A stretch of 41,366 nt of DNA from Synechococcus sp. BS301-5m-G53 (GTDB lineage: Bacteria > Cyanobacteriota > Cyanobacteriia > PCC-6307 > Cyanobiaceae), in assembly GCA_016779825.1 (NCBI GenBank), contig JADHMX010000008.1, positions 1-41,366 on the forward strand, in the 5' to 3' direction. Each line of letters begins with the position of its first letter. Positions within the stretch are counted from its first letter, which is position 1. Shown one piece after another: positions 27,960 to 31,672 of this stretch. The notes beneath the pieces were generated by a model, which was given only the letters and a program-made list of their open reading frames with translations, was not told the DNA's origin and did no database searches. The translations under genes were made by a program, and so were the position numbers.

Positions 27960-28862
27960 ATGCTTTCGCTGCTGACGCGTACCAAGAGCTTTAAGGATCC
28001 TTGGGTTGGACACCCTGGTCTGAACAAACGTTGGCAGCTGCATCGACACCGTGTTCAGCTGGCGGAGACGCTTTGCCTCTGGAGACGCCTGCTGCGACCA
28101 GCCCAGCTGGCCAACCTCGAGCGGGATGGCTTTGTGGTGTTGGAGAACTTTCTGCCGCAGCAGGAGTTTGAGGCTTTGCGTGACGAGGTGGAGGCCGTTG
28201 TTGGTCGCGCCTCGCGCCTGCATCCGGCACCGGACAACAACCGGCCTGGATTTCGCCCGAAACAACCCTTCCCCGGTGGGTTTGACCGTTTTGACGGTGG
28301 AACCCTCAACCGCTTTCTTCACCTCGACCCCGAGCGGATGCCTCGGGCCGCCGCCTTTTCCCATGACCAGCGGCTCAGTGCGGGATCGCGCCAGGTCATT
28401 GGTTTGCCGATCAATCCGCGGAAGCTGGACATTTATCTCACGGTGCATGGTGAGGAGACCCGCACGCCCGATCTCCAGAAGGTGCTGCATCGCGACACGT
28501 TTTTCCGTGCTCTCAAGTTTTGGTTTTTTCTGCGGCCGGTGCAACGTCAGGACGGACCCTTCGAATATGTGCCGGGCAGCCATCGGCTCGATCCACAGCG
28601 CCTGCGTTGGGAGCAGGCCACGGCCAGCGCGGCTGCTGAACAACGGCGGCAGCCGGATGTGTCTGGATCGTTCCGAATTCGCGAAGAGTCCCTGGCCGAG
28701 CTGGGTTTACCCCAGCCTGTTGCGCTCACCTGCCCCGCCAACACCCTGGTACTGGCGGATGTCTTCGGCTTTCACCGTCGTGGTGCTGCTGTTCCTGGAC
28801 GGCAGCGGTTGGCGCTCTACGGCTGGAACCGCCCTTATCCCTTCCTTCCCATCAGCTGGTGA
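27960..28862 (+). CDS. Phytanoyl-CoA dioxygenase (PhyH)-like Fe(II)/2OG oxygenase
   Basis: From ATG 27960 (MLSLLTRTKSFKDPWVG...): LERDGFVVLENFLPQQEFEALRDEVEAVV, HRD iron-binding motif, DGPFEYVPGSHRL, FGFHRRG. Confidence 0.82.
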   Translation: MLSLLTRTKSFKDPWVGHPGLNKRWQLHRHRVQLAETLCLWRRLLRPAQLANLERDGFVVLENFLPQQEFEALRDEVEAVVGRASRLHPAPDNNRPGFRPKQPFPGGFDRFDGGTLNRFLHLDPERMPRAAAFSHDQRLSAGSRQVIGLPINPRKLDIYLTVHGEETRTPDLQKVLHRDTFFRALKFWFFLRPVQRQDGPFEYVPGSHRLDPQRLRWEQATASAAAEQRRQPDVSGSFRIREESLAELGLPQPVALTCPANTLVLADVFGFHRRGAAVPGRQRLALYGWNRPYPFLPISW

Positions 28863-28883
28863 TCCGGCTGAGAGGATGGGTGC

Positions 28884-29345
28884 ATGAGTGAACAAGCCTT
28901 TCCCCCGGAAGACCCTGGCTCCTTTCTGAGCCTCTGCGACGGGGAGTGGATGAGCCTTCGCAGCTGTTTTGAGCTGGCGGCCGGTGGTGATGACGAGTGG
29001 CACAGCAGCGAACGGGGTGACCTCACTGTCCGCTACGTGGCAGAACAGGGGGCGCTTGGCCAACTCCAGGTGCAGGCCCCTGGTGGAACCCGCAGCACCC
29101 TCACCTTCGCCGCCGATGGACAGCTGATTCTTGATGGTGATTCCCCAGGCAACTGGAGGTTCTGGCCCGACGGCAGCATGGAGTTGAACCTCAGCCGGCC
29201 CGATGGGGTGTCTGTTCAGGAGAGGATCTGGTTCACGCGGGTCAACCTGCGCCTGCGCAGCACAACGGCGGTGGATGGGCAGGGAACACCGGTGCAGGGC
29301 AGTTTCTGCACGGACATCCGCAGGGTGTCCAAACCTGCGGCCTGA
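28884..29345 (+). CDS. CpcS/CpeS-family phycobiliprotein chromophore lyase (lipocalin-like)
   Basis: 153 aa; FLSLCDGEWMSLRSCFEL and QERIWFTRVNLRLRST resemble the CpeS/CpcS family. Confidence 0.8.
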   Translation: MSEQAFPPEDPGSFLSLCDGEWMSLRSCFELAAGGDDEWHSSERGDLTVRYVAEQGALGQLQVQAPGGTRSTLTFAADGQLILDGDSPGNWRFWPDGSMELNLSRPDGVSVQERIWFTRVNLRLRSTTAVDGQGTPVQGSFCTDIRRVSKPAA

Positions 29346-29351
29346 GGCGGC

Positions 29352-30557
29352 ATGGCGCCCTATCGGCTTGATGTGGTGAGCCTGGCGCCGCAGGCGTTTG
29401 CCCCTCTGCTGGAGCTGGGGGTCATCGGTCGTGCCTTCAACGCGGGCATTGCCGAGTTGCACCTGCACAATCCCCGCGACTTCGCCACGGATCGCCATCG
29501 CAAGGTGGACGACGAGCCCTACGGGGGCGGCGCCGGCATGGTGCTCAAGCCCGAGCCGGTGTTCGCCGCGATGGAGGCGATTCCCCGCAGTCCCCGCAGC
29601 CGGGTGCTGTTGATGTCACCGCAGGGGTGCCCCCTGCAGCAGGCAGATCTGCAGCGTTGGTCCTCCGACCACGATCAACTGGTCTTCCTCTGCGGTCACT
29701 ACGAGGGCTTCGACGAGCGGATACGCGGCCTGGCGGATGAGGAGGTGTCGATGGGTGATTTCGTCCTCACCGGTGGTGAACTGCCGGCGATGACGGTGAT
29801 CAATGGTGTTGTGCGCCTGCTGCCCGGCACGGTGGGAACGGCCGATTCCCTGGTGGAGGAAAGCCACAGTGCGCTTCTCCTGGAACACCCGCATTACACC
29901 CGCCCCGCCGACTTTCGCGGCATGACCGTGCCGGATGTGCTGCGCAGTGGCGATCACGGTGCGATCGCCCGCTGGCGTCAGGAGCAGCGGGAGCAGCGCA
30001 CCCGCGAGCGGCGGCCCGATCTGTTTGCGCGCTGGCAGGCCGCGACAATGAATGCCCCTTCAGACCCTGGCATGGAGCTGCGCATCGGCAACGGATACGA
30101 CATCCATCGGCTGGTGCCGGGACGGGCTCTCATCCTGGGGGGCGTGACCCTGGACCATCCCGATGGTCTCGGCCTGGATGGGCACAGCGATGCAGATGTG
30201 CTGGTGCATGCCGTGATGGATGCCCTGCTCGGGGCCCTTGCCCTTGGTGACATCGGCAAGTACTTCCCTCCCACCGATCCCCAATGGAAAGGGGCCGACA
30301 GCTTGAAGCTGTTGGATCAAGTGGTGAGGCTGGTGAAGGAGCGCGGCTGGTCGGTGGTGAACATCGATGCGGTGGTGATTGCCGAGCGCCCCAAGCTCAA
30401 GCCGCATATTGCCGAGATGAGCAGCCGGATAGCGACAGCGATCGGCATTGCCCCTGATGCTGTGGGTGTGAAGGCCACCACCAACGAAGGCTTGGGTCCG
30501 GAGGGACGGGAAGAGGGCATCAGTTGCCAGGCTGTGGCCCTGCTGCAGCGGAGCTGA
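29352..30557 (+). CDS. trmD-ispF: In-frame TrmD-IspF fusion: tRNA (guanine37-N1)-methyltransferase followed by 2-C-methyl-D-erythritol 2,4-cyclodiphosphate synthase
   Basis: Single 401-aa ORF; TrmD motifs [46 protein letters not shown]; IspF motifs [66 protein letters not shown]; no stop between. In-frame internal ATGs at 30048 and 30072. Confidence 0.93.
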
Positions 30558-30560
30558 ACC

Positions 30561-31001
30561 GTGCATCGACTCCGGTCTGTTCTGCTTAGGGTCATTGGAC
30601 CTTGTTTGGCATTGGTTCTGTTGTTGGGCGGGCTTTCGGAGAAAGAGGTTCGGGCCGGGGCTGACCAGCAGGTGGGCGAAGCGGTGGCTGTGGTTGAGCA
30701 TCTGCGGCTGCAGGTGCCCGTGGAGAGCCGTGAGCATTGGATGGCGGCGGAACGCGGCAGCTGGGAGCCTTGGTTGAAGCAACAGCCTGGATTTCTCGGT
30801 CGTGATCTGTACTGGGATCCGGCAACCGAGGAGGGAACCCTGCTGATTCGTTGGAGCAGTCGTGAGGCCTGGAAATCCATCTCCATGGCTGAGGTGGAGA
30901 CAGTTCAGCAGCGCTTCGAGACGTTGGCCCGTGAGCAGACGGGACAGAGCCAGGGCAACCCCTTCCCTCTGGTGTTTGAAGGGGAACTGTTGCCGCAGTG
31001 A
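30561..31001 (+). CDS. TIGR03792-like protein (antibiotic biosynthesis monooxygenase-like fold), signal peptide
   Basis: 146 aa; VEHLRLQVPVESREHWMAAERGSWEPWLKQQPGFLGRDLYWDPATEEGTLLIRWSSREAWKSI. Confidence 0.8.
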   Translation: MHRLRSVLLRVIGPCLALVLLLGGLSEKEVRAGADQQVGEAVAVVEHLRLQVPVESREHWMAAERGSWEPWLKQQPGFLGRDLYWDPATEEGTLLIRWSSREAWKSISMAEVETVQQRFETLAREQTGQSQGNPFPLVFEGELLPQ

Positions 31002-31672
31002 ACACGCCTGACGCTCGCCTTGATCTGCGGCGCCGCCAGCGCTTGGGCATGGTTGAGGCCATCTGGGGGGAACACAAGACAGCCGATCAGATCATTGCCA
31101 TCCTCGAGAGCTTCGCCGCATCAGGGGAAATGGGTCTGGTGACCCGGGTGGCTCCCGAGAAAGCGGCACAGGTGTGCAAGGCCTTGCCGGCGGTGGAGCG
31201 GCACCCCGACGCCCGCTGCCTCACCCTGGGTGCCCTGCCTCCTCTGCCACCGCCACCAGCTGAGGTGGTGGTGCTCAGCGGAGGCAGCAGTGATCGCACC
31301 GTGGTGGCTGAGACCGCCCTGGCCCTGCGTTGCCATGGCATCGGCGTGGATCCTGTGATGGATGTGGGGGTGGCTGGGTTGCATCGTCTGCTCGATCAAC
31401 TGCCCCGTCTGGCCTCGGCTCGGATCCTGATCGCCTGCGCGGGGATGGAGGGTGCGCTGCCGACGGTGCTGGCCGGTCTGGTGCCGCAACCCGTGATCGG
31501 TGTCCCGGTTTCGGTTGGCTATGGAATCAGCGCAGGAGGACGAACCGCCTTGGAAGGAATGCTCGCCAGCTGTGCACCCGGATTGACGGTCGTCAATATC
31601 GACAACGGCTATGGCGCAGCCATGGCTGCATTGCGGATGCTCCGAGGCTGTGCCCCAGAGGCTTCAAGCTGA
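30998..31672 (+). CDS. larB: LarB, nickel-pincer cofactor biosynthesis (AIR carboxylase-like)
   Basis: 224 aa; VVLSGGSSDRTVVAETALALRCHGIGVDPVMDVGVAGLHRLLDQL, CAGMEGALPTVLAGLVPQPVIGVPVSVGYG, VVNIDNGYGAAMAA. Confidence 0.93.
   Translation: MNTPDARLDLRRRQRLGMVEAIWGEHKTADQIIAILESFAASGEMGLVTRVAPEKAAQVCKALPAVERHPDARCLTLGALPPLPPPPAEVVVLSGGSSDRTVVAETALALRCHGIGVDPVMDVGVAGLHRLLDQLPRLASARILIACAGMEGALPTVLAGLVPQPVIGVPVSVGYGISAGGRTALEGMLASCAPGLTVVNIDNGYGAAMAALRMLRGCAPEASS

Follow-up and report, generated by a model that had tools for sequence, protein, structure and literature searches.

A trmD-ispF fusion gene with a conserved internal start codon in Synechococcus and Prochlorococcus

TrmD methylates tRNA and IspF makes isoprenoids; both are essential enzymes, and their pathways are unrelated. 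In the window studied here, the whole stretch of 41,366 nucleotides from Synechococcus sp. BS301-5m-G53, the two are encoded in one uninterrupted reading frame. This raises the question whether the locus is a genuine fusion or an accident, and whether IspF is made as part of the fused polypeptide, as a separate protein, or as both. We read it as a genuine and old TrmD-IspF fusion gene with two products, and assign a probability of about 0.77 to this reading.

Two complete domains in one frame and their spread

The fused frame (29352..30557, forward strand) comprises 401 codons from an ATG start to a TGA stop. An earlier note on this DNA had described a 401-residue frame with a full TrmD followed by a full IspF and no stop between them, and the coordinates as well as the Pfam and NCBIfam matches agree with this description. 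Nearly full profiles were covered by the matches to tRNA_m1G_MT (E 2e-61) and YgbB (2.3e-66) in Pfam and to trmD (3e-86) and ispF (9.7e-64) in NCBIfam. The TrmD domain (residues 5-228; 29364..30035, forward strand), delimited by PF01746, TIGR00088, NF000648 and the alignment to solved TrmDs, scores above the cut-off of both equivalog models (TIGR00088: 288.5 bits, cut-off 195; NF000648: 292.3, cut-off 220). The ispF frame, counted from the internal start, has 161 codons and a stop (30072..30557, forward strand; PF02542, TIGR00151 and alignment to solved IspFs) and reaches 214.1 bits with the IspF equivalog TIGR00151 (cut-off 116.45). With the bifunctional IspDF model NF006899 the frame scored 212.5 bits against a cut-off of 417, the IspF part alone matching; a match to the IspD part sits elsewhere in the genome (C84). 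The SPOUT domain of Tm1570 (PF09936) is absent from the C-terminus, where the domain is PF02542.

Residues R155 and E170 of the frame occupy the positions of the catalytic R154 and D169 of E. coli TrmD. R155 is invariant among the TrmDs compared. Residue 170 (29859-29861) is Glu where E. coli has the catalytic Asp169, and Glu stands at this position in 35 of the 46 TrmDs compared, among them all cyanobacterial sequences except one, and also in the TrmD of 8byh/8b1n, the latter presumably being the C. nitroreducens TrmD-Tm1570 fusion. Since Glu is so widely shared and TrmD-Tm1570 is active in vitro, we do not regard Glu170 as a sign of decay. On the IspF side, the metal and active-site residues D250, H252, S279, D280, D300 and T377 are invariant, and H278 is found in 49 of the 50 sequences compared. 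The frame encodes both enzymes in full, and their activities are predicted.

A first predicted model, based on close orthologues alone, was discarded for its low confidence (63.6); a deeper alignment gave the model used here (mean pLDDT 86.1). In the latter, the IspF part lies within about 1 Å of solved IspF chains, and TrmD and IspDF chains were matched as well. Its pTM of 0.50 fixes no relative placement of the two domains, and residues 234-238, inside the linker, are disordered. Depending on the domain model used, the last residue of TrmD is 225-232 and the first of IspF 243-244; the linker thus has about 11-17 residues, close to the approximately 10 given in the earlier note.

The window's genome is a draft, 79% complete and with 5% contamination, and an assembly or sequencing error might have deleted the trmD stop. 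However, the lack of a stop, noticed earlier in this one sequence, extends to the relatives: within the family sample of 400 genomes, the fusion is open in 32/32 same-genus genomes having the locus (own genome counted), 13 of which are single-contig assemblies. Chance or sequencing error is excluded by this agreement, and the error explanation can be regarded as refuted. A hidden second trmD or ispF was also considered and rejected, since the locus is the sole match to the protein in the window's genome and each same-genus genome has one match. As a side observation, the match in one single-contig genome (L190, g54) is broken within IspF, at about residues 299-310, by a frameshift or a sequencing error, and its linker is open.

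The fusion also occurs in other genera, including Synechococcus sp. WH 5701 (L032) and Prochlorococcus AG-402 genomes (L036, L042). In Nostoc, Leptolyngbya and Calothrix, trmD adjoins ispF with stops between them. On a tree of 198 loci, the fused state occupies a large region of marine Synechococcus and Prochlorococcus; separately from it, the state appears in smaller groups (part of g5, g35, g23). Parsimony gives 23 changes of state, at least 7 of which are forced by well-supported branches; as this count mixes gains and losses, we state no exact number of fusions. As reconstructed on this tree, the fusion is a state gained several times from the adjacent pair and lost several times. An ancestral adjacent trmD-ispF pair, as in Nostoc and Leptolyngbya today, probably lost its trmD stop on several occasions.

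Codon 241 and the proposed products of the fused gene

The earlier note named two in-frame ATGs as possible internal starts, codon 233 (30048) and codon 241 (30072), and both are present. Codon 241 (30072..30074, forward strand), the ancestral ispF start, was examined for its conservation and its substitution pattern, with IspDF fusions as a control. A codon alignment of 90 distinct fused ORFs shows a start-type codon there in 85 (59 ATG, 22 GTG, 4 TTG). Four g35-type ORFs have an ATG two codons after this position, and the last one (L118) carries CCC at codon 241 and a TTG a few codons upstream. On the tree, base changes at codon 241 among these 85 ORFs amount to 10/0/0 for positions 1/2/3, compared with 5/0/17 for the median codon. 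It is the single column showing such behaviour; the linker codons beside it change freely at all three bases.

If the fused polypeptide alone were made, Met, Val or Leu at position 241 would have to be structural. The frame that is open throughout and the lack of a Shine-Dalgarno signal would agree with this. However, the residue varies between M, V and L while the codon stays ATG, GTG or TTG. Where codon 241 is GTG or TTG, in 26 sequences, there are 22 all-Val/Leu columns, of which 241 alone is start-type throughout, and its third base has not changed at all, against 3-9 changes at the other 21 columns. GTG accounts for only 8% of the Val codons in genus g56. As a control we used 30 IspD-IspF fusions, obtained by a phylum-wide search around a Capsulimonas locus (L102): at their junctions a start codon is found in at most 27% in any column and in 0% at the equivalent column. 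We therefore consider it very improbable that the fused polypeptide is the sole product. The invariant third base, the confinement to ATG, GTG and TTG and the IspDF control argue for selection on the start codon, and start-codon selection, not residue selection, is the best reading of codon 241. This selection suggests that 30072 is indeed used for initiation.

The upstream in-frame ATG (codon 233; 30048..30050, forward strand) is kept in 32/32 genomes of the window's genus, and in many others the residue is M or I. Many Prochlorococcus have ATA or ATT at this codon, which makes 30072 the more probable start in general. A motif (R/K/T)(M/I)(D/E/N) lies some 8 codons ahead of the internal start (30045-30053 in the window, and in orthologous linkers); it recurs in the window's genus and in most fused Prochlorococcus linkers, the remaining linker being free.

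The earlier note had seen only weak Shine-Dalgarno-like sequence, and we likewise found no Shine-Dalgarno enrichment before codon 241: a match of at least four bases occurs in 17 of 89 fused ORFs, where 32 are expected. These numbers do not support Shine-Dalgarno-driven initiation. The missing signal and the CCC of L118 speak against the two-product reading, though many cyanobacterial genes have no such sequence. In 12 of 18 groups the surroundings of codon 241 are somewhat less structured than those of other codons, and strong RNA structure at the junction was dismissed as a candidate (z = 0.45). Alternatively, a promoter within trmD might drive a short transcript of its own for free IspF, with ribosomes not initiating inside the long one. 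Such a transcript would likewise require the conserved start codon, the lack of a Shine-Dalgarno sequence is compatible with it, and the Prochlorococcus inserts described below carry conserved DNA upstream of ispF. However, no sigma-70-like promoter was found in 28500-31200, which is a weak test in cyanobacteria. We regard a short mRNA as the exclusive source of free IspF as possible, though somewhat doubtful.

The linker (codons 229-240; 30036..30071, forward strand) is free in sequence and length and always in frame in fused loci. In the marine clade of 76 tips, 631 linker substitutions were inferred, from which about 32 stops (31.7) would be expected under neutrality; the test is approximate, its sample is one selected for fused loci, and simple splits were counted separately. 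For the window's genus alone, 166 substitutions give 4.0 expected stops. Simple losses of the fusion inside the marine clade are few, about 1-6: one is clear (L220), and short stretches are inserted in L213, L218, L219, L192 and L193. All gaps in fused loci are multiples of three, which is partly true by the definition of a fusion, whereas gaps in adjacent split loci fall in all three phases. These patterns bear on the explanation that the trmD stop was lost by chance, with free IspF, initiated at codon 241, doing the work and the extension of TrmD idle. The strong upkeep of the internal start speaks for it, as does the linker, unconstrained save for its frame, and Prochlorococcus lineages with inserts live with separate TrmD and IspF. 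However, an idle tail fits poorly with the few simple losses against the stops expected, with the phase of the gaps and with more than one origin of the fusion, and we consider it unlikely. In view of the few losses, the fused frame itself also seems to be kept, so that the fused product would matter.

The reading we prefer, a fusion gene with two products, can be outlined as follows. Translation from 29352 through the lost trmD stop would yield a bifunctional TrmD-IspF of about 44 kDa, as the open frame implies, and a second initiation at codon 241, on the same or a shorter mRNA, would yield an ordinary IspF of about 17 kDa. IspF trimers may then be a mix of free and TrmD-tethered subunits, so that dimerisation of TrmD would not have to impose a rigid 2-fold/3-fold lattice. 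The making of both products, the usefulness of the tethering and the form of the assembly are what we infer from these patterns. A true fusion and a separate IspF from an internal ATG, set out as alternatives in the earlier note, are compatible, and both find support: the frame and the start at 30072 are each kept.

Inserts at the 5′ end of ispF in Prochlorococcus

Codons R244-H252 (RIGNGYDIH; 30081..30107, forward strand) are intact in the window, and the orthologous stretch is a hotspot for the insertion of cassettes in Prochlorococcus. In many Prochlorococcus-type genomes, inserts of mostly 0.3-6 kb part trmD from ispF; cassettes within the 5′ codons of ispF were found at L194-L197, L201-L203, L206 and L208-L211. 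In a good part of the inserts, TrmD retains the former linker plus the opening codons of ispF, followed by a conserved tail. The TrmD of L203 ends after the insertion in ...NQFMKFRIGNEYDIYPDW and a stop, and split TrmDs often end with the linker plus RIGNEY..YPDW and a stop. Besides YPDW, acidic-aromatic tails such as DDWLWDL, DEDWFWNM and DPWWD, each directly before the stop, were seen in L198, L201, L204, L208, L215 and L217. Beyond the insert, ispF has a new N-terminus, new upstream DNA and a new start.

The right-hand ends of the inserts are alike across genera, and most of the cargo is not. At right-hand ends (L203, L206, L210, L217) there are TTACA/TCACA-type repeats about 11 nt apart, for example TCACAGATGCGTCACAG. 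They lie upstream of the new ispF start and also near some left ends, and are perhaps a regulator site or the end of an element. Joint sites occur within the inserts of L210, L201 and L208, which fits cassettes inserted serially and suggests repeated insertion at the same site. In g56 an AAC is shared; the codons on its left agree with the incoming element, those on its right with the host. Judged by Pfam for 10 proteins and by eye for the others, the cargo resembles surface-glycan and methyltransferase genes; a recombinase was not recognised. A free element or phage with the cassette end was searched for in viral contigs, where it had no match, and the exact joint-site pattern was not found in 61 Prochlorococcus-type genomes. 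The junctions suggest site-specific exchange at the 5′ end of ispF; homologous spread of an older insert is a possible alternative.

A more far-reaching proposal takes up both parts of the locus. The weak, selected start would set the ratio of tethered to free IspF, coupling a translation-fidelity enzyme to isoprenoid supply in mixed TrmD2/IspF3 assemblies, and undescribed surface-glycan cassettes would exchange at the same ispF codons in Prochlorococcus, breaking the fusion and restarting ispF. We offer it tentatively, and that both parts hold together is rather unlikely.

Comparison with known systems

In this locus, abundant marine phototrophs have linked two essential enzymes whose pathways are unrelated. 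It would be a clean natural case of a fused gene retaining a separate product, with a start codon kept where the examined IspDF fusions have lost it, and the codon-level test applied here could uncover other hidden internal starts. If the tethering is functional, tRNA m1G37 modification would be tied to the supply of isoprenoids, including pigment. The cassettes in the 5′ codons of ispF may represent a new integration system of Prochlorococcus. No report of a TrmD-IspF fusion was found in the open-access literature, and a SPOUT review (PMC1829167) and a survey of the MEP pathway (PMC10663253) do not mention it; the bare architecture may be listed in protein databases. To the best of our knowledge, both the insertion site in ispF and the evidence at codon level for two products are new.

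In IspDF, trimeric IspF carries at its N-terminus an enzyme that forms dimers when unfused (PMC5821942). TrmD-IspF resembles it (C. jejuni 1W55, H. pylori 8XHU) in having a dimeric enzyme on the N-terminus of IspF with a short junction. However, its partner comes from an unrelated pathway and its junction keeps a start codon, which the 30 IspDF junctions do not have. The TrmD-Tm1570 of Calditerrivibrio nitroreducens (PF01746-PF09936) is a homodimeric tRNA methyltransferase active in vitro (PMC11187310). It likewise has a second enzyme domain at the C-terminus of TrmD, but this partner is another knotted SPOUT methyltransferase and not IspF; no mention of internal initiation was found for it.

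Tycheposons and genomic islands of Prochlorococcus carry cargo cassettes at a fixed chromosomal site, a tRNA gene. The ispF inserts share the cargo at a fixed chromosomal site but sit at the 5′ coding end of ispF, are mostly 0.3-6 kb long, and have no recognised recombinase. In its proposed expression the locus resembles genes of the cheA long/short type, in which an in-frame internal start gives a long and a short product from one gene. As there, one trmD-ispF frame would give two products sharing their C-terminal part; in contrast to cheA, the short product would be an entire enzyme, from a different pathway, whose gene was formerly separate.
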